In this document: piece by piece, positions 37,285 to 50,846 of the stretch
Position numbering within the stretch: position 1 is the stretch's first letter
How the letters are laid out: each line of letters opens with the position of its first letter
Origin: Nitrospira sp.
GTDB lineage: Bacteria; Nitrospirota; Nitrospiria; Nitrospirales; Nitrospiraceae
DNA: 64,000 nucleotides
Assembly (NCBI GenBank): GCA_005116745.1
Contig: SWDS01000006.1
Coordinates: 669,222 to 733,221, forward strand
Reading direction: 5' to 3'
The notes under the pieces: generated by a model
What the model saw: the letters and a program-made list of their open reading frames with translations, nothing else
What the model was told of the DNA's origin: nothing
The model's database searches: none
Translations under genes and position numbers: made by a program

Positions 37285-37306
37285 GGACTTCTTGTTTGAG
37301 AAGTCC
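37285..37306 (-). terminator. Hairpin at the end of the ureide operon
   Basis: GGACTTCT (37285-37292) pairs with AGAAGTCC (37299-37306), loop TGTTTG. Its outer base pair touches the stop codon of the last minus-strand gene. The neighbouring CCGTATG/CATACGG palindrome (37270-37284) may extend the structure. Confidence 0.55.
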
Positions 37307-37701
37307 TAGCGGGGATGCTGGGCTATATATGACCGCCAGCCACCGAATTCGGTGATCTCCCGATGACCTTCGACGAGTGCCGGTTCGCCCAACACGCCCA
37401 AGACAATGCTCCCGTCTTCCAACCGCACCTTTCCGATGCACAGACCCGGGGGTTCATTCAGCAAGATCCCCGCCAGCCCTACAGTGGGTACTGACCAGAC
37501 TTCGACCGCCACCTTCACGCCGGTTCCATCGGTGACGCGCAGCATCGCGGGATGCACGTCGTTGATCGTCCAGAGCCGATATGTTGACTCGGTCATCGTC
37601 TCCCGAACAAACGTTGCCTTGGCCGCCACCATGTTGTGGTTAAGTTTGAGTCCTCGCATCAGCGTGCCGTTGACCGCGAGCAGCACGCCGTTCTGATTCA
37701 C
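37306..37701 (-). CDS. Stand-alone allophanate-hydrolase C-terminal domain (AtzF-C-like)
   Basis: A 131-residue protein reading [58 protein letters not shown] and [13 protein letters not shown]. This is the pattern I know from the C-terminal domain of allophanate hydrolase (AtzF/DUR1,2 type), a gamma-glutamylcyclotransferase-like fold proposed to decarboxylate N-carboxycarbamate. No amidase domain is encoded beside it or elsewhere in the window. It overlaps the upstream hydrolase gene by 4 bases and is the last gene of the operon. Its role without the amidase is unknown. Confidence 0.75.
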
Positions 37702-38396
37702 GAGGTGCTCCCTGCATAGGTCTGCTGAAGAGATTCGATGAGACGATCAGCCGATGTGACCCAGCCGACAATGCCGCCTTGCGATTGGATCATGCGGACT
37801 GTGGCCTGTTTAAAATCGGGGAAATAGCTTTCCGTCCCATCCTCGACCAGGAGACATTCAAAACCTCGGTCGTTGGCTTCTCTCATGCTGGTTTGCACAC
37901 AGACTTCAGTCGTCACGCCGGTAAACACCAGGTGAGTGATGCCGAGCGTCTTCAGACGTTCCTGTAAATTGGTGGCGTAGAATGCCCCCTTGCCCGGCTT
38001 GTCGATGACGAGTTCGCCGGTCGCAGGGTGCAGCTCCGGGACGATATCGTTTCCCGGCTCTCCCAAAACCAGAATGCGTCCCATCGGACCGGGGTCGCCG
38101 ATGCGGAGCGTGGACTCTCCACGCCGTTTCTTGGCCGGCGGACAATCCGAGAGATCGGGGCGATGGCCCTCCCTCGTGTGAATCACCGGCAATCCCAACT
38201 CGCGAAACGTCTTGAGGAGTTTCGCGACAGTCGGCACAATTTTCTGCAGATGTTCGACCTTATTCCCAAGCGCCGCGCCGAATCCGCCCGGCTCGACGAA
38301 ATCGCGCTGCATATCAATGATCACCAATGCCACGTGATTGCCTGAGCCTTTCGCCGGCAATGGATAAAGATAAGGAGAGGCTATGACGGTATTCAT
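37698..38396 (-). CDS. Isochorismatase-like cysteine hydrolase (second paralogue)
   Basis: A 232-residue amidohydrolase with the expected triad: Asp in VIIDMQRDF, Lys in IDKPGKGAF, Cys in [20 protein letters not shown]. The [14 protein letters not shown] and [18 protein letters not shown] stretches are shared with the BiuH gene at 39913, but the CGKGGYVD loop after the Asp is replaced by VEPGGFG, so substrate preference may differ. Candidates are biuret, triuret or another ureide. It overlaps both neighbours by 4 bases, indicating coupled translation. Confidence 0.85.
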
Positions 38397-39916
38397 GTTG
38401 TATGTCCTGTCATGTGTCGCCCAATGATCGCCAGGTCGGCGCCGGACGACGTGGTTTCATAGACGAGTTGCCCATTGAACATCACCACCGTGCGGTCGGA
38501 CAGCTCCAGGATTTCGTCGAGATCTTCGCTGACCAGCAGCACGGCTGTCCCGTGATTGCGCGCGGCGACAATCTGCAGACGAATCTCCTCCATGGCCAGA
38601 AAGTCCAGCCCGAAACAGGGGTTGGCGATGATCAGAATCTCCACCTCCGCCGACAGCTCACGCGCTAGGACTGCCCGCTGTATGTTGCCTCCCGAGAGCG
38701 ACTGAATGGGCGTGTCGGGATAGGGCGGTTTGATGTTGTAGCGATCGATCAGCTCAACCGCGCTGCGGCGCAGTGCCGGGCGACTAACGAGCCAGCCGCC
38801 CACCGCGTGAGGTTCACGATCGAAATTCCGAAAGGCGAGGTTCTCCGCCACCGTCATGCGTCCGACGCACGTGTTCTGGAGCGGTTCTTCAGGCAGGCAA
38901 AAAATCTTGTGCTGCATGATCTGCTCGCGAGTCGGCTGAAAAGGCTGATCCTGCACGTGGATCGTGCCGGACGTGGTTTGGCGTTGCCCAGACAGGATCT
39001 CGACCAGTTCTCGCTGGCCATTGCCCGATACCCCGGCCACTCCGACGATCTCGCCTTCATGGATGGTGAGATGCAGCCCTCGCACGACTTCCACCCCGAT
39101 ATCATCTTTGACACGGATATCTTGCAGGATCAACTTTGGAACTTTCTTTGACAGGACGGTCCGTTGCTTCGGCTTCGCCGTCACTTCCGAACCTACCATC
39201 ATCTCCGCCATCTGAGATACCTTCAATTCCGAGACGTTTCCTGAACCCACGAATTGTCCTTTGCGAAGGACGGTCACTTCGTCAGCAAAGGCCGCCACTT
39301 CGCGAAGCTTGTGGGTAATGATGAGGACACTCACTTGTTGCGCCAGGGTCATGGCCCGGAGATGGCCCAGGACTTCATCCGCTTCTTGTGGGGTCAGGAC
39401 CGAGGTCGGTTCGTCCAAAATAAGGATGCGGTTCCGCAGCGCGAGTTGTTTAAGGATTTCCACTTTTTGTTTTTCGCCTGCGGCAAGCGAACTGACGCGA
39501 GCGGAGAGCGACACCTTGAACGGCATTGTGTTCATGAACTGTGTCAGCTGATGCTCTTCCTGCTGCCAATTGATGATGGGGTCCAGCTTGACCTTGGAGA
39601 TCACCAGGTTCTCGAGGACCGTCATGTTGGGGATCAGCGTAAATTGCTGATACACCATGCCGATCCCGAAAGTCTGTGCGTCCCGTGGGCTGCGAATCGT
39701 GACCGCTTGCTGATCCAATAGAATTTTCCCCTCATCAGGGTGGTAATACCCCATGATGCATTTGACCAGGGTGCTTTTGCCCGCGCCGTTTTCACCGAGC
39801 AGGGCATGGAATTGACCTGATCGGAGGTGGAAGTGCACGCCCTTCAAGGCCACGAGTGGTCCGAAGCGTTTGGTAATCCCCAACGCCTGCAAATCTGGAG
39901 GAGCTCCATCCGTCAT
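38393..39916 (-). CDS. ABC importer ATPase with two nucleotide-binding domains
   Basis: A 507-residue protein of the RbsA/YufO type. The first half has Walker [14 protein letters not shown], signature [13 protein letters not shown] and Walker [16 protein letters not shown]. The second half has [14 protein letters not shown], signature [13 protein letters not shown] and [12 protein letters not shown], where the Walker B is less canonical, as is usual in this class. It energises the two permeases at 40644-42625. It is sandwiched between the two hydrolase genes with 4-base overlaps on both sides, tying transport to hydrolysis. Confidence 0.92.
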
Positions 39917-40596
39917 GAAAGCGCCTCTAATAGGCCGTCCGATTTTGCCACGGCGCCGAACACTCCGCCCTGCATGGTGACCATCTTGATCGCAGCCTGG
40001 TGATTCCCCAAATCAGTTGCGCCGCAACAGTCTTCCAGCAAGAGACATTCGAAACCACGATCATTCGCTTCGCGCATGGTGGTATGGACACAGACATCGG
40101 TGGTGATCCCGGCCAAGATCACATTGTGGATGCCGCGAAGTCTCAGCAACATCTCCAGATCGGTCGCCCAAAACGAGCCTTTGCCAGGCTTATCGATGAT
40201 GGGTTCGCCAGGTTTAGGAACGAGTTCAGGGATGATCTCCCATCCAGGCTCCCCTCGAACCAGGATTTTTCCGCAAGGACCGGGATCTCCGATGCCGGCT
40301 CCGATTCTCCGGCTGCGCCACCGCTTATTGTCCGGTAGGTCTGCCAGGTCAGGACGATGGCCTTCTCTCGTATGGAAGATATGCATGCCAATGGCTCTGG
40401 CTTTCGACAGCACCTTGAGGATATGGGCGATCGGGGCTCGGGTGAGAGAAATGTCGTAGCCCATCTTGTCGACATAGCCACCCTTGCCGCAAAAATCAGT
40501 CTGCATGTCGATGATGAGAAAGACCGTATTGTCGGGCCGTAAATCCCCATTGTATGGATAGGGGTAGGGATCGGATGCGACATACTTCTTATCCAT
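39913..40596 (-). CDS. biuH: Biuret amidohydrolase (BiuH)
   Basis: A 227-residue isochorismatase-family cysteine hydrolase that would split biuret into allophanate and ammonia. The stretches [90 protein letters not shown] and [18 protein letters not shown] match characterised rhizobial BiuH closely as I remember it. Catalytic Asp, Lys and Cys are all present. Biuret arises in soil and from cyanuric acid breakdown. Triuret hydrolases are close relatives, so triuret is an alternative substrate. Confidence 0.82.
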
Positions 40597-40643
40597 TATT
40601 CACCTCTTCACTGTGTAGAGCGGGGTCTGTCATGCGATATGTC

Positions 40644-41561
40644 CTAACGAGTCACGGTCAGCTCACGCGGGACTCCCACGAGAGTTCGTTTGGGAGAGCA
40701 GGTGATGATCATTACCGCTAAGGTCATGATGTAGGGAATTGCGTTGAAAATATAATATCCACCTGTGATCCCTACCGATTGCAGGGACGGTCCCAAGGCC
40801 GCTGCCCCTCCCCACAAGAGCGACACCCAGAGGCAGCCGATCGGCTGCCAGCGGGCAAAGATCACCAGTGCTACCGCCATCAATCCCTGGCCACTTGAAA
40901 GCCCTTCACTCCAATTGAACGGGTAGTAGAGGGAGAGATAGGACCCACCGATTCCGGCCAAGAATCCTCCTTGAGCCGTGCTGAGGATCCGTATACGATC
41001 AACCGGCAATCCTAGGGCGCGTGCCGCATCGGCGCTTTCGCCGACGACTCGGACTTTTAATCCCCAGGCCGTATTCTTCAACATCCATCCCAGCAGGACC
41101 GCCACGACGATTCCTAGCAGAAACAACGCATTGATCTGGAGAGCCGCTTTGATCTGAGGCACATCGCTCCACCCTCCGAGGTCGATGGAGGGTAGCCGAG
41201 GCGCCGATGGCTGGATATAGGGCTTCCCCAGAAAAAAGGCCAACCCCGTGCCGAACAGCATCATCGCGATCCCGACCGCGATATCGTTGACTCGTTGGAA
41301 ACTGCAGATCCAGCTGTGTAAGGCCCCGAGCGCCATGCCGGCCAGGCCGGCACACAAGACTCCCAGCCACGGAGACCCGCTATGCAGTGAGACGGCGTAG
41401 CCGGTCATGGCGCCCATAACCAGTGTGCCTTCCAGGCCCAAATTGATGCGGCCGCTTTTCTCGGTCAAGCATTCGCCCAGTGACACAAACAGAAACGGCG
41501 TACCGATTCGAATCGCTCCGCCGAGCACGGCGATGAGCACTCCCCACCACCCGACTTCCAT
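40644..41561 (-). CDS. ABC importer permease (YufQ-like)
   Basis: A 305-residue membrane protein of the branched-chain/ribose permease family. FLFVSLGECLTEKSGRINLGLEG is the diagnostic N-terminal motif; later FLAGIGGSYLSLYYPFNWSEGLSSGQG and a C-terminal segment ending SPKRTLVG follow. It overlaps the second permease gene by one base. With the Tat-exported binding protein it forms a nucleoside/ureide-type importer. Confidence 0.9.
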   Translation of the reverse strand: MEVGWWGVLIAVLGGAIRIGTPFLFVSLGECLTEKSGRINLGLEGTLVMGAMTGYAVSLHSGSPWLGVLCAGLAGMALGALHSWICSFQRVNDIAVGIAMMLFGTGLAFFLGKPYIQPSAPRLPSIDLGGWSDVPQIKAALQINALFLLGIVVAVLLGWMLKNTAWGLKVRVVGESADAARALGLPVDRIRILSTAQGGFLAGIGGSYLSLYYPFNWSEGLSSGQGLMAVALVIFARWQPIGCLWVSLLWGGAAALGPSLQSVGITGGYYIFNAIPYIMTLAVMIITCSPKRTLVGVPRELTVTR

Positions 41562-42625
41562 CAGGCTGCTCCTTGTTTCTGTAACTTCGCAAAACGACCG
41601 TACAGGGTTTCGCTAAAGAGAATGACGAGGAAAATGATTCCCTGCATGACGAGCACGGTCGCATCGGGTAACTCATGCGTACGCTGCAATAACCCGCTGC
41701 TGGCGCGAATGCCTCCCAGTAAGACGGCAACGGGAATGATGGCCAATGGATTATTGCGTGCCACGAAGGCGACGAGAATGCCGGCATACCCATAATTGGC
41801 ATTGAGGGTATCATTGGCCCTGCCATGGATGGCCGCCACTTCCAACATCCCTGCCAGTCCACCTGCCGCCCCCGCCACGCAACAGATGATCAAGATCAGC
41901 CGTCCGACCGGTAGGCCTGCGACCTGGGCTGCGCGAACATTGCCCCCGGCGATCTGAGACGCGAAGCCAAAAACGGTGTGATTCATGAGAAACCATGCGA
42001 TGACACAGGCCACGATGCCGAATGCCAATCCCCAGTGGAGATCTGTTCCAGGAATGACGCCGATCATATTGGCCTCTCCGATATGATGCGTCGAAGGATG
42101 GTTGAGGCTTTCCGGATCGCGAAAGGTGCTCGTGACAAGGTGGTTCAACAGAGCGATGGCGATGTAGTTCAGCAGCAGGCTGCTAATGGTTTCATTGACG
42201 GCGCGATAGTGCCGCAATGCTCCTCCGATCATAAGCCACACGCCGCCGGCTAGCATGCCGGCGAGTGCCATGGTGGTCAGAACGACTATGGGAGGAGCTG
42301 TGGGCATGGTGAGAGCCACAATGGCCGCGAAGAGGCCTCCCATGACGACGGCGCCTTCGCCTCCGATAACAATTAAGCCGAGATACCCCGGCAGTGCGGT
42401 GCAGAGGGCTGTCAGCATCAACGGCGCGGCTCGCACCAACGTGTTCTGCCATGAGAATGAGGTACCGAAAGCGGCACGATACATGGTCTGATAGACCTCG
42501 AACGGATCGGCTCCGGCCGACGCCACAAAGATTCCGAATAACACCATCGAGACCGTCAGGGATCCGACGATGATGAGGAACGGTTCCAGCGCTTTATTCA
42601 AGGTCTGTGGCACGGCTATGCTCAC
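41561..42625 (-). CDS. ABC importer permease (YufP-like)
   Basis: A membrane protein of about 354 residues with the family pieces MLTALCTALPGYLGLIVIGGEGAVVMGG, NETISSLLLNYIAIALLNHLV and a middle AAQVAGLPVGRLILI. The GTG at 42625 overlaps the stop of the binding-protein gene (GTGA), which I take as the start; the frame stays open to 42661. It pairs with the YufQ-like permease. Confidence 0.87.
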   Translation of the reverse strand: MSIAVPQTLNKALEPFLIIVGSLTVSMVLFGIFVASAGADPFEVYQTMYRAAFGTSFSWQNTLVRAAPLMLTALCTALPGYLGLIVIGGEGAVVMGGLFAAIVALTMPTAPPIVVLTTMALAGMLAGGVWLMIGGALRHYRAVNETISSLLLNYIAIALLNHLVTSTFRDPESLNHPSTHHIGEANMIGVIPGTDLHWGLAFGIVACVIAWFLMNHTVFGFASQIAGGNVRAAQVAGLPVGRLILIICCVAGAAGGLAGMLEVAAIHGRANDTLNANYGYAGILVAFVARNNPLAIIPVAVLLGGIRASSGLLQRTHELPDATVLVMQGIIFLVILFSETLYGRFAKLQKQGAA

Positions 42626-43758
42626 GACTTGGTTGAACCGATGACTCCCTCGACCAGCCAATCCATACTTTCCAGCCAGATATCCGTCTGGACATGTTCC
42701 TTGCCTGCAGCAATGACGACGCGACCGGCATTGTCTTTGATCGGGCCCTTGTACACGACCATCCCCCCACCCATGAATTTGTCTTTGGCGGCGTCGGCTT
42801 GTTTGCGAACAGCGTCGGTGACGACCTGGTTATAGTCCGATACCTTGACGATTCCTTCCTTTAAACCACCACGCACGAGATGAGGTACAGTCTGCCCTTT
42901 TCGAATCATGTCGGCATAATCCATGTAGACCTTGGCCCAATTCCATTCTGCTCCTGTGAGATACCCTTTCGGGGCAAGCTTGGATTGGTTGCAGTGGTAC
43001 CCGGTGCAATAGACGCCCCGCTTTTCGGCAGTTGTGATGACGACCTTGGGACTGTCGACGTGGCAGGTGATGACATCGATGCCTTGGTCGACCAAACTGT
43101 TCGTGGCTTCCGCTTCACGGACCGGCAGCGACCAGTCGCCCGTAAAAATCACATTGGTCGTACAGTTGGGTCTGATGCTGCGGGCACCGAGGGTATAGTT
43201 GTTGATGTTGCGCAAGACTTGCGGAATGGGCTTCGCCGCCACAAACCCCAGCTTCCCGCTCTTGCTCATGCCACCTGCGACGATGCCGGCGATATATTGC
43301 GACTCATCGATGAAGCCAAAGTAACTCCCGACGTTCTTGGGGTGTTTACCCTCTTGGTACAGCCCACCGCAATGCAGAAACTGGATGTTGGGAAATTGTG
43401 GTGCGACCTTGATTATATGGGGATCGAAATAACCGAAGGAGGTGGGAAACAATACTTGTGCTCCGTCCAGCTTGACCATGCTTTCCATGGTTTTCTGAAC
43501 TTCGATGGTCTCCGGGACCTTTTCTTCATCGAAGGCTTTTACCCAATCAAGCTTGGCGACCGCCGCTTTCCCTTCAAAATGTGCCTGATTGTATCCATAG
43601 TCGTCTCGTGGGCCTACAAAGATGAAGCCCATCTTCACCTTGTCCGATGCGCCCCAGGCGTGGCCGATCCACTTCACGTTGCCCAACATGCCCAGCGTCC
43701 CGGCAGCTGCAGTCCCCTGTAGTACTTGGCGTCTCGTCAGTTTGCGTGATTCGGACAT
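42622..43758 (-). CDS. BMP-family substrate-binding protein of the ABC importer, Tat-exported
   Basis: A 378-residue periplasmic protein. It starts with a twin-arginine signal (KLTRRQVLQGTAAAG) and then KMGFIFVGPRDDYGYNQAHFEG, the BMP/Med lipoprotein pattern used for nucleosides, purines and related ureides. The start at 43758 has GGGAGG before it. The frame continues to 43842, but those 28 residues (MSDARTQLADFFSIL) come from the palindromic repeat and are not part of the protein. Substrate by context: biuret or another ureide. Confidence 0.88.
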   Translation of the reverse strand: MSESRKLTRRQVLQGTAAAGTLGMLGNVKWIGHAWGASDKVKMGFIFVGPRDDYGYNQAHFEGKAAVAKLDWVKAFDEEKVPETIEVQKTMESMVKLDGAQVLFPTSFGYFDPHIIKVAPQFPNIQFLHCGGLYQEGKHPKNVGSYFGFIDESQYIAGIVAGGMSKSGKLGFVAAKPIPQVLRNINNYTLGARSIRPNCTTNVIFTGDWSLPVREAEATNSLVDQGIDVITCHVDSPKVVITTAEKRGVYCTGYHCNQSKLAPKGYLTGAEWNWAKVYMDYADMIRKGQTVPHLVRGGLKEGIVKVSDYNQVVTDAVRKQADAAKDKFMGGGMVVYKGPIKDNAGRVVIAAGKEHVQTDIWLESMDWLVEGVIGSTKS

Positions 43759-43798
43759 ATGCCCCTCCCTCAGGGTGAGATGTGTATGGCGACCTACT

Positions 43799-43918
43799 AG
43801 GATGCTGAAAAAGTCCGCCAGCTGCGTTCTCGCATCGCTCAAAGGCGCAACGTACCGAAGCGTACGTCTTGCCTTTTCACTCGCTGCGGCCTTGCTGGGT
43901 AGCCCTTTTGAGCATCCT
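43799..43918. repeat. Long imperfect palindrome, dispersed repeat copy 2 (120 bp)
   Basis: It is collinear with the copy at 23522 and begins AGGATGCTGAAAAAG; the right tip reads CTTTTGAGCATCCT, here the better inverted match. It lies between the carbamate kinase stop and the binding-protein start, splitting the catabolic genes from the transport genes, and may act as an attenuator or RNA-processing hairpin. Confidence 0.75.
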
Positions 43919-43930
43919 AAGCGTGCGGCA

Positions 43931-44881
43931 TTACTTCACAATAAATGTTCCCGTTTCGCCGGCCAGGGCGCGACCAATATTCTCAGGATTGGTGATCAGC
44001 CCGGTTTGTCCACCCCCTTCTATGAATTCGATCACGGCCTGAATCTTTGGTCCCATGCTGCCTCTATCGAATTGATTGTCCGCATAGTGTTGCCTTGCTT
44101 CAGCCACGGTCATACGGTCCAGCCATCGCCGGTCCGGCTTATTGAAGTTGATCGCCACCTTTTCGACCCCTGTGGAAACCAGCAACAAATCAGCCCCAAT
44201 ACCACGGGCCAGCAGGCTTGACGCTAAGTCCTTGTCAATAACAGCTTCGACGCCAATCAGGTTCCCTTCCTCGTCTTGAATCACAGGAATCCCACCGCCA
44301 CCGCAAGCAATGACGACAAATCCAGCCCGAGCCAAGAGGTTGATGGCCGCCAATTCGACAATGGTCTTTGGCTGCGGCGACGGCACAACTCGCCGCCACC
44401 CGCGTCCCGCATCTTCCTTGACCACCCATCCTTGGCGAGAAGCGAGCCGTTGCGCGGTCTGTTCGTCCATCTGAGATCCGATCGGTTTAGAGGGATCGGC
44501 AAATGCCGGGTCGTGTCGGTCCACCAAGGTCTGCGTGATGATGGCCACCGCCTTTCGATCGATCTTCTGCTTGCGAAATTCGTTGTAGAGGGCTTTGAGG
44601 AACATGTATCCGATGCCACCCTGTAGGTCGGCATCGGCATAGTCCATCGGCACGGGAGGAACTTCCTCTAAGGCTAATTCGGAGCGGCGCAGAATGAAGC
44701 CGACTTGAGGACCGGTCCCATGGGTGATGACGACATTCCACCCGACTGCGATCATGTCCGCGATGTGATGTGTCGTGATGACCGCCTCGCGACTTTGATC
44801 CGGAATCGATTGGTGATCCTTGTCGCGGATCAACGCGTTGCCTCCGACAGCGACGACGGCAAGTTTGTTAGAGGTTCCCAT
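43931..44881 (-). CDS. allK: Carbamate kinase (AllK/ArcC type)
   Basis: A 316-residue kinase that uses carbamoyl phosphate and ADP to make ATP, ammonia and CO2. Motifs: VVAVGGNALI, ITHGTGPQVGFILRR, QTLVDRHDPAFADPSKPIG, VVIACGGGGIPV, VEAVIDKDLASSLLA and GSMGPKIQAVIEFIE. No arginine deiminase or ornithine carbamoyltransferase gene is near, so this is not an arginine-fermentation kinase. Its neighbours are AllG and AllF, as in the E. coli allantoin locus (ybcF). The product ammonia would feed assimilation or nitrification. Confidence 0.92.
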   Translation of the reverse strand: MGTSNKLAVVAVGGNALIRDKDHQSIPDQSREAVITTHHIADMIAVGWNVVITHGTGPQVGFILRRSELALEEVPPVPMDYADADLQGGIGYMFLKALYNEFRKQKIDRKAVAIITQTLVDRHDPAFADPSKPIGSQMDEQTAQRLASRQGWVVKEDAGRGWRRVVPSPQPKTIVELAAINLLARAGFVVIACGGGGIPVIQDEEGNLIGVEAVIDKDLASSLLARGIGADLLLVSTGVEKVAINFNKPDRRWLDRMTVAEARQHYADNQFDRGSMGPKIQAVIEFIEGGGQTGLITNPENIGRALAGETGTFIVK

Positions 44882-44899
44882 AGGGTTCCTTCGAGTGCG

Positions 44900-46312
44900 T
44901 CACGTCGCACTTACCAACTTGGCCAGCGCAGACACGGCTTGTGTGAAGCAGGCGAGGGGAGCACGAGTGATCCCTGCTCCAATTTGCCCGACCCCTGCTT
45001 CGCGATGGGCAATCCCCGTGTTAATGATCGGTTGAATACCGGTATCGACGACCTTTCGGATGTCGATGCCCGCCGGTGAGCCGGCGAAGTTCAGTGCCGG
45101 CAGTGTGAAGGCATTGTTGCGGCCAATGGTGATATGCGTCATGGCCATGGTATTGTCGATCGCGTCCTGCGGCGTGCCGCCGACAAACTTGACGATGGCC
45201 GGGGACGCCGCCATGGCAAATCCGCCGACACCGGCGGTTTCAGTGATGGCACTATCTCCCAAGTCAGGCGCTGCGTCGGCCGCGCTGTATCCGGGAAAGA
45301 AGAGTCCATCGACGACCGGGGCTGGTGTCGTAAACCATCGGCTTCCGGTGCCGCTGACTCTGATGCCGAACTCGACACCATTACGGGCCATGGCTGTGAC
45401 CATACTGCTGCCCGGAACGCCATGGGCTGCGTCGGTCATCGCTTTGCAGGCTGCCATGGACAGATTTAAGAAGAAGTGGTCGTTGCCGGCGATGAACTCG
45501 ACGACCGCCGCGATGTCGGCAGCGGGGGTGCGTGTCTTCAACAATGCTGAGATGAGGCGTTTCAGGAACAACGAGGAGGCAGCAGCGTTACGATTATGCA
45601 CTTCGTCGCCCATGTGGAGGGCCTGCGCCATCATAGGCTTGAGGTCGACCCCGCCTAGGAGTTCAACGCTCGCTCGCAGGGCTGGTGCGAGTACCTGCCC
45701 CATCCATTTGAGACGGGTGATCACGTCGGGACCGTTGGCGCCGAACCTGAGCGCCTTGCCGAGGCCCTCGTTAAAGTTGCTGAACGCCTGATATCCGTTG
45801 GTCGTATTAGTCACTATCCAGACCGGCATGGATGGGCTGATGATCCCGGCCATCGGCCCGACGGCATTGTGGTGGTGGCAAGGCTCGAACGCGATGTCGC
45901 CGCTGGAAGCCATGGCCTCTGCCATGGTGAGATTTTCTGCCCAGCCCTCATAGAGAATAGCTCCGACGATGGCCCCCTTCATGGGCCCGCACATATCCTT
46001 CCACGCAATGGGAGGACCACTGTGCAGGATCATTCGCTCTGCGATGTTGGGCAGCATCTGGCTGGCGGTGCCCACGCCGTTCAACACCGGCTGGGCCGAT
46101 TGGTAAGCATCGAATGCTGTCTGGTTGGCGGTTTCAATGGAGAGCAGGTTGACCAACCTGGCCAACGCACGACCGACCTCCTGCTGCCCCTGAGCAGGCG
46201 GGGCCCATTCGATCTGGAGCACAGAACCGCCCGCCCTCGTGATGGAATCGGCGAAGGAAGATAGGCCGACATTCAAGACATGGAGCTTCTCCTGAAACAG
46301 GGCCTGTATCAC
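44900..46312 (-). CDS. allG: DUF1116 protein AllG (YlbE), carbamoyltransferase subunit
   Basis: A 470-residue protein: VLNVGLSSFADSI, a repeated VEWAPPA-like stretch (IEWAPPAQGQ), GIGTASQMLPNIAERMI-like region, then GPMAGIISPSMPVW and HMGDEVHNRNAAASSLF, all typical of the DUF1116 family. In enterobacteria it acts with FdrA (AllF) and YlbF (AllH) as oxamate carbamoyltransferase, which phosphorolyses oxalurate to oxamate and carbamoyl phosphate. It overlaps allF by 4 bases and precedes carbamate kinase by 18 bases. Confidence 0.88.
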   Translation of the reverse strand: MIQALFQEKLHVLNVGLSSFADSITRAGGSVLQIEWAPPAQGQQEVGRALARLVNLLSIETANQTAFDAYQSAQPVLNGVGTASQMLPNIAERMILHSGPPIAWKDMCGPMKGAIVGAILYEGWAENLTMAEAMASSGDIAFEPCHHHNAVGPMAGIISPSMPVWIVTNTTNGYQAFSNFNEGLGKALRFGANGPDVITRLKWMGQVLAPALRASVELLGGVDLKPMMAQALHMGDEVHNRNAAASSLFLKRLISALLKTRTPAADIAAVVEFIAGNDHFFLNLSMAACKAMTDAAHGVPGSSMVTAMARNGVEFGIRVSGTGSRWFTTPAPVVDGLFFPGYSAADAAPDLGDSAITETAGVGGFAMAASPAIVKFVGGTPQDAIDNTMAMTHITIGRNNAFTLPALNFAGSPAGIDIRKVVDTGIQPIINTGIAHREAGVGQIGAGITRAPLACFTQAVSALAKLVSAT

Positions 46313-47865
46313 AATCGTCCTCCGACGACGCTAGCCTTCTGGACGACAGAGGCAGCCATGCGCACGGCCTGAGCATTGCTCTCCGCAAGGATTACCCCGG
46401 CTTCTCGAAAAGCCGCTTCCTGCTTGGACAGATCCTGAGGGTCCGCTGCTGTGCCGCAGACGAATCCTATGACGGCCAGGTGCCTGCCCGCTTTGGTGGC
46501 AAGATCCCGCGCCTTCTGAATCGCCGGGACCATTTCAGCGGCAGGATCTGGGTGAGATCCGTAGCCAAGGACAACGTCCAATAGAATTACTGCTACCTCG
46601 GGTTCGCTGGCTTCCTTGATCAGCCGCTCATTTCGGAGCCGATGGTCGATCATGGGATGGGGGCGTCCGCGAGTGAAGAGATCGTCGCCCAGATCAATGA
46701 CCGTGTGCTTTCGACTGGTCCAGACATCGCTCAAACGATCCTCTGGCTCCACTGGAGTGTTGGAATTGATCTGCCCCAGTTCTTTCTTCAGGAGGAGCGA
46801 CGCCTCGTAGCAAAAGGTGCCGCCGCTATAGAGGCCCCGGATGTATCGCTGTTGTGGACCAAGAGGTGTGATGGAAGGAGAGGTCACAGTCGCTCTCCTG
46901 GCTTCGGGAATCCTGCCGTTGCCGAGCGCCACCGCCGCCGCTGCTGCATCCTCGAGCGTTGCGGCAGGGTAAATATTCTCGCGTCTCACTCGATCGGGAT
47001 CGGCACCAAGAAAATTGACGACCACCGGCTTGCCTGCGCCGCTGGCTGCCCCCAGTACCTTGCTGACTACTTCTGGTGACGGAGGTTTAGAAATGAGCAC
47101 AATGACGGAGGTGGAGGGATCGGCTGCCAGTGCCTTCAGGCCCTGAAGCATGGACATACCGCCGACATCGCGGTGCAGATCGTGTCCGCCCGTTCCGATC
47201 GCCTGCGAGATGCCACTGCCCCATCGGTCGACCAGGCAGGTCACCTGTTGGAGACCAGTGCCAGATGCGGCGACGACACCGATGACTCCGCGACGCACCA
47301 CATTCGCGAACGCAAGCGGGATGCCATTGATAATGGCGGTTCCGCAGTCCGGGCCCATGACAATGAGATCACGCTCCTGGGCGAACTGTTTGAGTGCGAT
47401 TTCGTCCTTAAGCTCGACGTTGTCGCTGAAGAGCATGACATTGAGGCCGAGACTCAAGGCCTTGAAGGCCTCCGCCGCGGCGTACTCGCCCGGCGTGGAG
47501 ATCAAAACGAGGTTTGCGCCGACGAGGTTCCCAAGCCCCATCTCGATGCTGCGCGGAGACATGCCGCGTGATTGTTCATTGCCGGTCGACGAAGGGGAAG
47601 GTTGCTTCAGCGCGGATTCTGCCGCAGTAAGCGCCGATTCAAGTGCCTCGGCATTTCCTTGAAGAGCGATCAACAAGTCGTTGGCGCCGGCTTCAACGGG
47701 TTCCGCCAACAGGCCCGCTTCCACAAGAAGTGTCACATTGTTGGGAGAGGCCATGATGGCCGACGCTTGTTCCACGCCAGGCAGCTTGGTAATCGTGGAA
47801 GACAGCTGCATCAACGAGACGGAATCACGATAGAAGTTCCGGATTATTTTTGTCGCCCTGGCCAT
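46309..47865 (-). CDS. allF: FdrA-family protein AllF, carbamoyltransferase subunit
   Basis: A 518-residue protein related to the succinyl-CoA synthetase alpha chain. N-terminal FYRDSVSLMQLS, the nucleotide-fold motif VMGPDCGTAIINGIPLAFAN, VVAASGTGLQQVTCLVDRWG and GTGGHDLHRDVGG, then the C-terminal ligase-like DVVLGYGSHPDPA are family hallmarks. It is the first gene of the compact run allF-allG-allK. The 305 bases upstream, which separate it from allH, hold a possible regulator site. Confidence 0.9.
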   Translation of the reverse strand: MARATKIIRNFYRDSVSLMQLSSTITKLPGVEQASAIMASPNNVTLLVEAGLLAEPVEAGANDLLIALQGNAEALESALTAAESALKQPSPSSTGNEQSRGMSPRSIEMGLGNLVGANLVLISTPGEYAAAEAFKALSLGLNVMLFSDNVELKDEIALKQFAQERDLIVMGPDCGTAIINGIPLAFANVVRRGVIGVVAASGTGLQQVTCLVDRWGSGISQAIGTGGHDLHRDVGGMSMLQGLKALAADPSTSVIVLISKPPSPEVVSKVLGAASGAGKPVVVNFLGADPDRVRRENIYPAATLEDAAAAAVALGNGRIPEARRATVTSPSITPLGPQQRYIRGLYSGGTFCYEASLLLKKELGQINSNTPVEPEDRLSDVWTSRKHTVIDLGDDLFTRGRPHPMIDHRLRNERLIKEASEPEVAVILLDVVLGYGSHPDPAAEMVPAIQKARDLATKAGRHLAVIGFVCGTAADPQDLSKQEAAFREAGVILAESNAQAVRMAASVVQKASVVGGRL

Positions 47866-48170
47866 GTAGACGGTCTCCCATCGACGTCTCGCCTTGGCAG
47901 GCTCACGGCGTCAACGTCAGGCGGGTAGGTGACCTCCCGCCGATGGCTTATTATGTGGCGAACGTCAAATCCAGCAGCGTGATGCCTCGTCTAAGAATAA
48001 GGAACGAACGACCGAAGAGTACGGCCGACTTACTATCTGATATTTGGCAGCTAACTTGAACACAAGATTGTATACCAAGTCAAGGGCAAAGCCGGGGTTC
48101 GAGTCATAGGCCGAATCAGCTCGAGGAACGACCATCGTCTCATCACCTCTTACATCTTTCGATTCTGGTT
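47866..48170. other. Gene-free spacer between allH and allF
   Basis: This 305-base stretch shows no convincing coding frame. It contains the TTGTATACCAA near-palindrome at 48068-48078 and probably carries the allF promoter. A 69-residue minus-strand frame (47965-48174) has no family resemblance and overlaps the allH end. Nothing else stands out. Confidence 0.5.
48068..48078. promoter_or_regulatory. Putative GntR/FCD operator
   Basis: TTGTATACCAA is a near-palindrome of the TTG-TATAC-CAA kind bound by several FadR/VanR-type GntR regulators. It lies about 200 bases upstream of allF. A related palindrome, ATTGTATGCAAT, lies at 50004-50015 upstream of the first GntR gene. Confidence 0.4.
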
Positions 48171-49151
48171 TCATGGTTGGGCCGTTGAATCGCAGAGAAC
48201 AGACAAACGAAGAAGGTCACTGAAAATCAGATGCGGAGGCAGGCCCTGCCAGACAAGACAGCCCAACAGCAGGCCTAACACCCCGTCGGAGCCAGAAGTA
48301 TGGCCGACTTGCAACGCGGCTTGCGTGGCTGCCCTGATGTTGCTCATATCGTTTGCCTGGGTCAGTCGCTGCGCTAATTTCGCGATCGATTCAGAGACAT
48401 GGCCCTTGGCTGCGGATCGGAGATAGGTGCAGCTAATTTCATTGGTATTCTGTGACACTTGGGACAGTTCAGAGCCTAAGGCCATCAGAAATTGCATCCG
48501 AGATAGGCTGGCCCCTGCCGTGCACCATAATCCGGCCAAATAACCCACGAGAAAATCATCGCCTGAGGGAGTCAATCCGTACCCAAGTCCGATCAGTGAT
48601 TGAACGGAGATCATGGCCTCTCTTAATTGGAGGCGACATGTCGTCTGTAGGAGTGACGGGATAGTGTAAGCACCCTGTTGGAGAAGAATCTCCGTGGCCG
48701 CTGGCGTGATAGGTCGTCCTTCTGATAGGAAAAAAGCACCCAGATTCTCCGACATGCCACTTTTATAATGATGCAATTTCAATTCGGACCAAGCAACTGC
48801 CCAGGATTGAGCATGAGTGGGCCGGCAAAGATCGATGTGCAACCCTTTGAGATCGATGTGCCAGGGGCGTGCAGGTCGCAGATCGACGGAACACTCAGTT
48901 CCGTTGATGCGGAGTATTCCTCCCCGACATGCGGCTGATTGTCCAACTCGAAGGGTATGAAGGAAGTCAAAATGAGATGAGGTGTCTAAGCGAATGCCGT
49001 GAGGGACATTGCCTTTCTGGCATGGGAGTAGGGTCAGCAGCGTACCAGACTCTAGCGATACATTGCAGGCCTGGCGGAACACGCTATGCACGGTTCCGCT
49101 GAAAGGATGTGATGGTACCTGAATGCCGACCGAAAGGGCCTGGAAGCGCAC
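48171..49151 (-). CDS. allH: DUF2877 protein AllH (YlbF), carbamoyltransferase subunit
   Basis: A 326-residue protein with the DUF2877 signature GLGYGLTPSGDDFLVGYLAGL near residue 190, an earlier GTVHSVFRQACNV, and a late VGHTSGSDGVLGLLLG. In the E. coli locus this is the third subunit of oxamate carbamoyltransferase. Here it sits upstream of allF, separated by 305 bases, and 38 bases after the first GntR gene, a rearranged order compared with enterobacteria. Confidence 0.85.
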   Translation of the reverse strand: MRFQALSVGIQVPSHPFSGTVHSVFRQACNVSLESGTLLTLLPCQKGNVPHGIRLDTSSHFDFLHTLRVGQSAACRGGILRINGTECSVDLRPARPWHIDLKGLHIDLCRPTHAQSWAVAWSELKLHHYKSGMSENLGAFFLSEGRPITPAATEILLQQGAYTIPSLLQTTCRLQLREAMISVQSLIGLGYGLTPSGDDFLVGYLAGLWCTAGASLSRMQFLMALGSELSQVSQNTNEISCTYLRSAAKGHVSESIAKLAQRLTQANDMSNIRAATQAALQVGHTSGSDGVLGLLLGCLVWQGLPPHLIFSDLLRLSVLCDSTAQP

Positions 49152-49189
49152 GATGGGTACCCCATCGTCCCGAAATTACGGGGCGTTCA

Positions 49190-49900
49190 TTAGGTTTTCA
49201 TCGAGTAGGCTCTGGCCAATGCATCCTTGATCGCCGTATGGACGTTGTTGCGCCCCTCTTCGATGTTTTGTTGCATGGCGGCGCGCGCCTTCCGTCCATC
49301 CTTGGCGGCGATGTGCTTCAGGATCTCCAGATGTTGACGGCATGTGCTTTCGGCTCGATCGGCCTTGTCAAAATCGATCATACGAAAAAGCATCAATCGT
49401 TCGTTGATGGTACGAAGGTACCGCAAAAGCGTCTTGTTCCCTGCAGCATGGGCGAGCATCTCGTGAAACTGAGTGTCTAGTCTGGCGAGTTCCTCGGCCT
49501 TCTTGGAAGATCCGTTCAGCAGGTCGGTCCATGTCCGCTTCAGCTTAACCAAGTCTTCTATATCATTCTCATTGAGCGGACCTCTTCTCGCCAAGCACTC
49601 AACGGCATATAGTTCCAACGCGACGCGGACCTCGTACAGCTCCTCGATCTCATTGATGTTGTGCTGCCTGACCACGTAGCCACGATTCGGCAATTTTTTT
49701 ACGAATCCGTCGGTTGCCAGTACACGGAGTGCTTCCCGCACAGGGCTCCGACTCACGTTGAATATCTTGCAGAGTTCGACTTCGGTCAGCCGATGTTCGG
49801 GTGGGTAGTGCCAGTGAATGATCTGTTCTTTCAGCGTGGCGACAATTGATGCACTCAGGTTGGATGGTTCTCTTTCCACCATTCGGTCGTTTCGAATCAT
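49190..49900 (-). CDS. GntR/FCD-family transcription regulator 1
   Basis: A 236-residue regulator: winged helix with RLTEVELCKIFNVSRSPVREALRVLATDG (residues about 38-66), then an all-helical FCD effector domain with LDTQFHEMLAHAAGN and CRQHLEILKHIAAKDGRKA. His and Asp residues of the FCD metal/ligand site are present. It is a close paralogue of the gene at 50157. Being next to allH it probably controls the ureide genes, with a ureide or carboxylate as signal. Confidence 0.9.
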   Translation of the reverse strand: MIRNDRMVEREPSNLSASIVATLKEQIIHWHYPPEHRLTEVELCKIFNVSRSPVREALRVLATDGFVKKLPNRGYVVRQHNINEIEELYEVRVALELYAVECLARRGPLNENDIEDLVKLKRTWTDLLNGSSKKAEELARLDTQFHEMLAHAAGNKTLLRYLRTINERLMLFRMIDFDKADRAESTCRQHLEILKHIAAKDGRKARAAMQQNIEEGRNNVHTAIKDALARAYSMKT

Positions 49901-50003
49901 TATGTTCTTTCGGGACTCCGAGCCTCAGGAATAATCCAAGGTGGATGGCACATGAGGTACGGGCAGACAACCGGTTTTACTTCCTGCGGCGCCAACGCTA
50001 TGC

Positions 50004-50015
50004 ATTGTATGCAAT
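50004..50015. promoter_or_regulatory. Putative GntR operator upstream of regulator 1
   Basis: ATTGTATGCAAT, palindromic except for one central mismatch, lies about 105 bases before the regulator 1 start, between the two regulator genes. It suggests autoregulation or cross-control by the second regulator. Confidence 0.4.
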
Positions 50016-50156
50016 AAGGTCTACGAAGTTCAATCTGTCTGGACGTCTTGCTCGTGCGCACTCTCACGGTATGAACAATGTCGAGCGTTGGGAGGGGGGA
50101 TGGGACGAGGCGAACCCAAGATGCCGACCATCGTTCCAGAGCAGACGCAGTACAAT

Positions 50157-50846
50157 TTAGGTATTCTTTAAGTAAGCTCTGGCCAGCGCATCCTTGATCG
50201 TTGTAGGGATGAGGCGGCGTCCTTCCTCGATATTCATCTGCATGGCGGCACGCGCACCTAGGGCATCCTTGGCCACAATCCGATTCAAAATCTCCAGATG
50301 TTGGTGGCAGGTGTGTTTCGCACGGTCTCGTCTCTCGAAATCGAGCATTCGAAACAGCCTGAGGCGTTCATTGATGGTCCGAAGGTGCCGCAGAAGAGAT
50401 TTATTTCCCAGGGCTCGGGCCAGTGTATCGTGAAAGAGTGTGTCCAGGATGGCGAATTCCTCTGGTTTCTTGGACGATTCCTTCAAAAGTTCGGTCCAGG
50501 TTTGTTTAAGGTCGGCAAGATCGGCAGCAAGCTGTGTCGTCTGTTTCTTGGTCGCGAGGCGTTCGACGGTATAGAGCTCCAGGGCTAGGCGTACCTCATA
50601 CAGCTCCTCGATTTCTTCGATGTTATACTGCTTGACCGCGTAACTCCGATTCGGCAGTTTTTTGACGAAGCCATCAGCTGCCAACACCCGGAGCGCCTCC
50701 CGAACTGGACTGCGGCTCACGCCGAAAGTCTTGCACAATTCGTCTTCGGTTAACCGGTGTTCCGGCGGGTAGTGCCAGTGAACGATGTGTTCCTTCAGTG
50801 TGTTCACGACGGACGAGCTTAGGTTCGAGGAGCCGTGTTTTTTCAT
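50157..50846 (-). CDS. GntR/FCD-family transcription regulator 2
   Basis: A 229-residue paralogue of regulator 1, matching along its whole length (IVHWHYPPEHRLTEDELCKTF, SRSPVREALRVLAADGFVKKL, then an FCD domain with LDTLFHDTLARALGN and HQHLEILNRIVAKDALGARA). The start at 50846 (MKKHGSS) has GGGAGG 5 bases before it; the frame is open to 51221 but the extension is non-coding in character. The pair arose by tandem duplication; the effector pockets differ enough to allow two signals. Confidence 0.88.
   Translation of the reverse strand: MKKHGSSNLSSSVVNTLKEHIVHWHYPPEHRLTEDELCKTFGVSRSPVREALRVLAADGFVKKLPNRSYAVKQYNIEEIEELYEVRLALELYTVERLATKKQTTQLAADLADLKQTWTELLKESSKKPEEFAILDTLFHDTLARALGNKSLLRHLRTINERLRLFRMLDFERRDRAKHTCHQHLEILNRIVAKDALGARAAMQMNIEEGRRLIPTTIKDALARAYLKNT

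Follow-up and report, generated by a model that had tools for sequence, protein, structure and literature searches.

Predicted triuret and biuret operon of a probable comammox Nitrospira, with AllFGHK and a free AH_C domain as candidate working parts

Why an operon for the uptake and hydrolysis of small ureides should also carry AllFGHK, a carbamoyltransferase and carbamate kinase set known from oxalurate breakdown, is the question raised by positions 37306–50846 of a 64,000-nucleotide stretch of a Nitrospira sp. assembly (contig SWDS01000006.1; the whole stretch is called the window below). On balance we favour the reading that this is a triuret/biuret operon, and that AllFGHK would be a working part of its ureide pathway rather than a neighbouring oxalurate pathway. 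What carries this reading is a TrtA-type hydrolase beside BiuH, the association of TrtA with AllG in other bacteria, and protein fusions that tie TrtA and the kinase to one small domain, AH_C. The three subunits AllF, AllG and AllH are present together with AllK, and the genes on which the argument turns are as follows.

37306–37701, minus strand: AH_C, free homologue of the allophanate hydrolase C-terminal domain and proposed N-carboxy-ureide decarboxylase (PF21986, 133.5 bits; 131 amino acids, no amidase; nearest solved chain 5c5z)
37698–38396, minus strand: predicted TrtA-type triuret hydrolase (nearest PDB entries 6xix/6xj4/6xje, 2e-87; 6/6 TrtA-specific residues; TrtA-1 clade)
39913–40596, minus strand: predicted BiuH biuret hydrolase (NCBIfam NF050097, 408.6 bits against a cut-off of 370; BiuH residue set; BiuH clade)
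43931–44881, minus strand: AllK-type carbamate kinase (TIGR00746, 362.1 against 358.25; NF009007, 371.3 against 266)
44900–46312, minus strand: AllG, carbamoyltransferase subunit of the TrtA-associated kind (PF06545, 331.6 bits; AllG tree)
46309–47865, minus strand: AllF (FdrA-like), carbamoyltransferase subunit (NF004760, 519.8 against 433)
48171–49151, minus strand: AllH, carbamoyltransferase subunit (PF11392, 93 bits against 25)

The operon and its two hydrolases

The protein encoded at 37698–38396 is closest to 6xix, 6xj4 and 6xje, the triuret hydrolase of Herbaspirillum, and the paper on that enzyme names the residues that distinguish TrtA from BiuH (PMC7948467). Indeed, catalytic D24, K129 and C162 and the TrtA-specific F35, N41, E160, Y187, Q202 and I205 are all present, while the 39913–40596 protein has the BiuH set Y, Y, D, T, Q and V at the same six positions. 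In a tree of 119 hydrolases, which omits near-copies and most Nitrospira loci, the former clusters with 6xix (100/99) and the latter falls among BiuH. The closest structures, the tree and the pocket residues all assign the second hydrolase to the TrtA type, so that the operon would reach both biuret and triuret, with triuret a likely first substrate. An earlier note on this DNA, made from the letters alone, had recognised a ureide operon; it overlooked the identity of TrtA, and hence triuret, as well as a prior publication on such clusters (PMC12625717).

Transcription runs on the minus strand from 50846 to 37306, through two GntR/FCD regulators, AllH, AllF, AllG, carbamate kinase, the BMP-type binding protein, two permeases, BiuH, the importer ATPase, the TrtA-type hydrolase and, last, AH_C. 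Open reading frames and domain-family scans of ten of the proteins recovered, where the earlier note had placed them, BiuH, the second isochorismatase-like hydrolase, the AtzF-C-like domain, carbamate kinase, AllF, AllG, AllH and both regulators. Its complete BMP-type importer is upheld by a scan for the binding protein (PF02608), the ATPase and two permeases being assigned from sequence and position. Four-base ATGA/GTGA overlaps do join BiuH to the ATPase, the ATPase to the second hydrolase and that hydrolase to AH_C, and a further one, which the note had not listed, joins AllF to AllG. The remaining genes are these.

38393–39916, minus strand: ABC importer ATPase (open reading frame; kept place in the operon; family read from sequence)
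40644–41561, minus strand: ABC importer permease 2 (open reading frame; conserved order)
41561–42661, minus strand: ABC importer permease 1, exact start unsure (open reading frame; conserved order)
42622–43758, minus strand: BMP-type substrate-binding protein with a TAT-like signal (PF02608, 141.6 bits; TAT_signal 19.6, below the cut-off of 22.7; ATG at 43758)
49190–49900, minus strand: GntR/FCD regulator a (PF00392 and PF07729; recurs at the operon head in other Nitrospira)
50157–50846, minus strand: GntR/FCD regulator b, paralogue of a (PF00392 and PF07729; present in some Nitrospira loci only; likely start the ATG at 50846, within a longer TTG frame)

The source genome (3.86 Mb, 32 contigs) contains amoA (PF02461, E 2.7e-99), and its AllG shares 96% identity with the AllG of Nitrospira sp. 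RSF12; the source is therefore probably a comammox Nitrospira, which agrees with the idea of one ureide import-and-breakdown operon in a probable nitrifier. AtzF is defined by an amidase plus a C-terminal domain, and 37306–37701 encodes the C-terminal domain alone; nor did any match to full AtzF pass the curated cut-off in the genome, so the amidase part of allophanate hydrolase is missing as proposed. Urease, also listed as missing, is absent from 37306–50846, but is encoded elsewhere in the genome (G000:C2:328302).

The arrangement recurs in relatives. Among 175 Nitrospiraceae genomes we found AllG in 19, AH_C in 23 and BiuH over the cut-off in 21, with BiuH in the same locus as AllG wherever the contig extends that far, which is the conserved linkage that the earlier note had asked to be checked. 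The order AllH-F-G-K, binding protein, two permeases, BiuH, ATPase, TrtA, AH_C is repeated in other Nitrospira loci long enough to show it, so the arrangement is not due to chance. The AH_C frame is at most 196 amino acids long in 22 of the 23 genomes (a few are cut by contig ends); in the other, G070, AH_C is the end of a full AtzF that stands beside AllFGHK, and TrtA is split over two frames. By hand tally, amoA is present in 15 of the 21 BiuH genomes and absent from six. Across the 27 genomes with parts of the operon, urease occurs in 25 and full AtzF in one. A decayed copy in G118 consists of only a GntR gene, a piece of AllH and a piece of AH_C.

AllFGHK and AH_C beyond Nitrospira

An AllG profile run against the GTDB species genomes gave 485 relatives, of which the best 80 loci were taken, a choice that leans towards Nitrospira-like AllG; the first 12 (L061–L072) are Nitrospira and kin, and the remaining 68 (L073–L140), none archaeal, form the survey. 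Each locus spans at most 10 kb on either side, some contigs are short, and there are near-copies (L109 and L110 are identical, several Caballeronia and mycobacteria are similar, and L102 and L115 come from one metagenome-assembled genome, MAG). A hydrolase with at least five of the six TrtA residues was called TrtA, and allantoin genes were sought with K-12 AllB, AllC and AllD queries. Within these stretches, the TrtA-signature hydrolase was found in 53 of the 68 loci, AH_C in 43, a cytosine-permease-like transporter in 27, full AtzF in eight and BiuH in one, and allantoin genes in none. TrtA lies on the AllG strand in 46 of the 53; the gap between the two genes has a median of 2506 bases and never exceeds 6150. 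The linkage of BiuH with AllFGH thus holds in Nitrospiraceae, whereas outside Nitrospira AllFG pairs with TrtA and hardly with BiuH.

AH_C provides a second link. Two Cupriavidus (L104, L116) encode AH_C and TrtA as a single protein, and in six mycobacterial loci (L127, L130, L133, L138, L139, L140) and a Burkholderiales MAG (L106) one reading frame encodes carbamate kinase together with AH_C, suggesting that TrtA, AH_C and the kinase likely act in one pathway. AH_C does not appear to be a mere copy of the AtzF domain, since the position of its residue 14 (window numbering) is His in 18 of 18 AtzF C-domains and, in 78 free or kinase- or TrtA-fused AH_C, is Leu in 72 (the window included), His in two and a gap in three. 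Among the 53 loci with both TrtA and AllG, 42 have free AH_C, four have full AtzF and none has both; the two do occur together in some genomes, though not within one such locus.

Distant AllG is otherwise under-sampled. As a control within one order, 158 evenly sampled genomes of the order of Buttiauxella supplied 20 AllG regions. These are most of the 24 AllG places there; L108 and L131, both with TrtA and AH_C, were covered otherwise, and one remainder is a weak match. Five of the regions contain TrtA, all five with AH_C; seven contain allantoin genes, none with TrtA or AH_C; the remaining eight have neither TrtA nor AH_C. In the AllG tree (a quick one, no bootstrap, with a long-branch warning around the L136/L152/L153 side), seven of eight allantoin-linked rows and three unlabelled rows form a clade (support value 100, branch 1.9) that excludes the window AllG, the eighth (L159) adjoining it on a long branch; the window AllG is placed among Nitrospira. 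The separate contexts and the tree together suggest at least two kinds of AllFGHK, of which the window would hold the TrtA kind. Its AllFGHK is linked to no allantoin gene in the window and stands outside the allantoin clade, the rest of the genome not having been searched for such genes; that the locus is neither the classic allantoin nor the classic cyanuric acid pathway is in keeping with this. A third AllFG context, in L155–L158, is without TrtA, AH_C or allantoin genes; its AllG forms a clade of its own (support value 100), and three of the four have an open reading frame of about 512–515 amino acids between AllG and AllK.

These results bear on the interpretation published for comammox, in which triuret/biuret hydrolysis (TrtA, BiuH, AtzF-like) and oxalurate breakdown (AllFGHK) are two independent neighbouring pathways (PMC12625717). 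The K-12 AllFGH is indeed an oxalurate enzyme (PMC11326118). We nevertheless consider two separate pathways rather improbable, because none of the 68 AllG loci has allantoin genes while 53 have TrtA, most allantoin-linked AllG sit in a distant clade, the AH_C fusions tie TrtA and AllK together, and PMC12625717 itself reports no upstream purine genes in comammox.

A compact version of the set exists in E. coli CFT073 (C_RS22530–C_RS22505, L060:17439–23403): a TrtA-like hydrolase, AllH, AllF, AllG, ArcC and AH_C, then a cytosine-permease-like gene. In the annotation the six appear as cysteine hydrolase, DUF2877, FdrA, DUF1116, ArcC and allophanate hydrolase-related protein. Of 5426 complete E. 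coli genomes, 1542 contain this 5,965-base six-gene operon over at least 80% of its length; among all 1616 matching places 127 lie on plasmids, and one copy or more contains an insertion sequence element. The operon is also present in the probiotic strain E. coli Nissle 1917. The window proteins resemble those of CFT073 more than the K-12 allantoin proteins in AllG (64.4 against 49.8% identity), AllK (57.8 against 40.9%) and AllF (51.5 against 43.6%), with AllH little apart (32.4 against 31.2%); AH_C is 56.2% identical to that of CFT073. The window and CFT073 thus share a core of TrtA-like hydrolase, AllHFGK and AH_C, but CFT073 has only one hydrolase, of the TrtA-2 clade described below, no BiuH in the locus, and the cytosine-permease-like transporter.

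The TrtA-like gene is also found in 248 plasmid records (Rhizobium 119, Escherichia 77, Klebsiella 13, others). Two regions that we viewed, on an Enterobacter IncR plasmid (L201) and a Sulfitobacter plasmid (L202), both hold TrtA, BiuH, formamidase, AtzF and a BMP importer, and share the order binding protein, two permeases, BiuH, ATPase, TrtA, with the formamidase gene before BiuH. A 115-amino-acid 'allophanate hydrolase' after the Sulfitobacter TrtA was considered as a free AH_C and rejected, its sequence being cupin-like by eye; no homologue of it above 60 bits was found in the Nitrospira loci. The Nitrospira operon combines TrtA-1, BiuH and the importer, in the plasmid-like order and with no formamidase gene, with AllHFGK and AH_C, and so connects AllFGHK, in nature, with the TrtA clade that includes the assayed enzyme.

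In the hydrolase tree TrtA splits into two clades, TrtA-1 (100/99), which holds the characterised enzyme, BiuH-linked genes and the window TrtA, and TrtA-2 (95/83), where AllG loci account for 52 of 64 rows and the CFT073 protein, entered twice, for one more. Betaproteobacterial L102 and L167 each have one of either clade, beside BiuH and AllFG. TrtA-2, and hence AllFGH, might use a different triuret-like ureide or amide, such as a product of pyrimidine breakdown, the process to which what appears to be this E. coli operon (GR29) is assigned in PMC12928451; Nitrospira would then run two substrates. The separate clade and the cytosine-permease-like transporter of the survey loci fit such a substrate, which we still regard as improbable, the least probable of the readings considered here: apart from truncated L090 and L115 (another hydrolase), the AllG-locus hydrolases compared keep all six TrtA-specific residues, and the Nitrospira AllFGHK and AH_C sit with TrtA of the characterised clade, no TrtA-2 having been seen in Nitrospira loci.

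Other hydrolases and their neighbours may be recorded here. Five open reading frames of about 510–540 amino acids nearest TrtA-2 gave no family in a Pfam scan. A third hydrolase group occurs in Nitrospira off the operon (L056 in G129, L057 in G115), with Y, L, E, G, E and I as its six pocket residues, and similar matches to the BiuH profile below the cut-off are found in G107, G108, G125, G149 and others. In L177, L187 and L188, which have neither BiuH nor AllG, TrtA-1 lies near an amidase-like open reading frame of 455–456 amino acids (124–133 bits against the amidase part of AtzF), which might provide an AtzE-like means of processing carboxybiuret.

A proposed route and its alternatives

In the route that we favour, the importer would take up triuret and/or biuret, and TrtA would convert triuret to carboxybiuret and ammonia, carboxybiuret being the product shown for the Herbaspirillum enzyme (PMC7948467). 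AllFGH would then act on a triuret-derived ureide, most likely carboxybiuret, and pass its terminal carbamoyl group to phosphate, giving carbamoyl phosphate and allophanate. From carbamoyl phosphate and ADP the kinase would form ATP and carbamate, which would release ammonia; the earlier note seems to us right to have called a gain of ATP possible. BiuH would act on biuret, either imported or formed by spontaneous decarboxylation of carboxybiuret. Free AH_C would decarboxylate an N-carboxy ureide, most likely allophanate to urea, and the urease encoded elsewhere in the genome would split the urea.

Carboxybiuret is, in chemical terms, oxalurate plus one NH. Its phosphorolysis to carbamoyl phosphate and allophanate would thus require the smallest change of substrate. 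In four genomes (G180, G213, G220, G464; MAGs in at least three cases) a single locus unites TrtA, AllF, AllG, AllK and full AtzF, and BiuH is nowhere found over the cut-off, which suggests AllFGH as a likely supplier of allophanate to AtzF. (The search that turned up G464 gave 48 weaker matches, of which five lie in G181, G191 and G192, all with TrtA and AllG, and 40 were taken in; L174 among the loci seems to duplicate L098.) Moreover, by hand tally, 12 of 50 genomes, six of these 12 being isolates by title, gave no match to BiuH or full AtzF and no strong one to urease, so that among the next enzymes looked for only AllFGH is left, other amidases not having been looked for. The 50 were chosen from the 68 loci by dropping mostly those without TrtA; their 49 with a TrtA-like gene are therefore a biased count, and 53 of 68 is the fair one.

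AllFGH might instead act later or on another ureide of the pathway, converting allophanate to carbamoyl phosphate and carbamate or biuret to carbamoyl phosphate and urea, while AH_C decarboxylates carboxybiuret in place of TrtB. AH_C does follow TrtA directly, with a four-base overlap, and is fused to it in the two Cupriavidus; comammox contigs are reported without TrtB (PMC12625717); and Nitrospira genomes with no AllG match retain AH_C. Set against this, AH_C and full AtzF never share a TrtA–AllG locus, which makes allophanate a likelier substrate of AH_C than carboxybiuret; AH_C is fused to the kinase as well; and the clusters with TrtA, AllFG, AllK and AtzF that lack BiuH require a source of allophanate. 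We think a later step for AllFGH unlikely, though it is the alternative to which we give most weight.

Several observations weigh against carboxybiuret as the substrate of AllFGH, or against a single pathway. Six Nitrospira genomes (G072, G082, G103, G104, G105, G115), all with urease, keep TrtA and AH_C, five of them with BiuH over the cut-off, and show no AllG match; AllFGHK was accordingly rejected as indispensable. In three of the six the interval from regulator to binding protein is without AllF, AllG and AllK (L033 in G115, L034 in G072, L035 in G082), apparently after a block deletion, L033 and L035 retaining a short remnant of AllH; in the other three the contigs are short. In the survey, 15 of the 68 AllG loci are without intact TrtA; most are on short or cut contigs and the L090 copy is broken, yet L073, L085, L088 and L122 are 13–21 kb long. 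Seven of the 53 TrtA–AllG loci have neither AH_C nor AtzF, and AtzF lies near AllFG in eight of the 68. TrtA-linked AllG is not one clade, as L136, L152 and L153 fall on the allantoin side (support below 95), and TrtA-2, the hydrolase that adjoins AllFGH outside Nitrospira, has to our knowledge no assayed member. Fifteen of 31 TrtA loci in a Burkholderiales sample have neither AllG nor BiuH. For the E. coli AllFGH the assay ran in the reverse direction, from oxamate and carbamoyl phosphate (PMC11326118), and a part in urea breakdown has been ascribed to the AH_C-like E. coli protein c4763 (Kim 2015, as cited in PMC7558591). Finally, PMC12625717 describes ammonia-oxidising archaea whose biuH contigs often carry allFGHK, naming no trtA there; such a pairing fits allophanate rather than carboxybiuret as the substrate of AllFGH, and so favours a later step.

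Two other relations between the genes were also considered. As a plain replacement of AtzF, AllFGHK would be expected to exclude it, and this fails in the eight survey loci and in G070. That BiuH and AllFGH are alternatives among the Burkholderiales TrtA loci is a weak proposal, and the counts (AllG only in seven, BiuH only in eight, both in one) prove nothing alone.

Relation to known systems, and significance

Collocation of these genes in comammox is already published: PMC12625717 describes clusters of trtA, biuH, 'atzF', bmpA/nupABC and allFGHK in comammox Nitrospira_D, Palsa-1315 and Ca. N. nitrificans, and takes AllFGHK to serve oxalurate, in a pathway beside the one for triuret. By its text the gene set is the same, and the window is a further case; compared by description only, the difference is that two pathways and atzF are given there, whereas here we see the C-terminal domain alone and assign AllFGHK provisionally to triuret. 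With the TrtA–TrtB–BiuH–AtzF pathway of Herbaspirillum and Rhizobium (PMC7948467) the window shares TrtA, BiuH and the BMP importer; it differs in having no AtzF amidase, AH_C standing alone, AllFGHK added and no homologue of the Sulfitobacter-type cupin. Its AllF, AllG, AllH and AllK are homologous to those of K-12 (43.6, 49.8, 31.2 and 40.9% identity; PMC11326118), but belong to another AllG clade, have no allantoin genes nearby and are joined to TrtA and AH_C. In open-licence PMC texts we found no assignment of AllFGHK or free AH_C to triuret breakdown, no TrtA-2 clade, no such fusions and no paper on N-carboxycarbamate; the supplement of PMC12625717 treats the cluster further and may hold part of this.

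At its widest, the proposal is of an unrecognised ATP-conserving triuret route, in which TrtA would yield carboxybiuret, a distinct AllFGH set carbamoyl phosphate and allophanate, and the kinase ATP. It would operate in comammox Nitrospira, in mycobacteria, in Burkholderiales and Chloroflexota, and in 28% of the complete E. coli genomes; comammox cells would draw on one polymer both for ammonia oxidation and for direct ATP synthesis. We put this broader claim forward tentatively, as a possibility that we rate somewhat below even. Triuret is a fertiliser impurity and has been reported in human urine (PMC7948467). If the route is real, a large group of AllFGH enzymes, which today would receive the label oxamate carbamoyltransferase, would gain a function. 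Free AtzF-C proteins such as 5c5z, whose relative in E. coli has until now been linked with the degradation of urea (PMC7558591), would gain a new one. The route would also predict a source of nitrogen for those E. coli genomes that carry the operon, and triuret could supply comammox bacteria with both ammonia and ATP.

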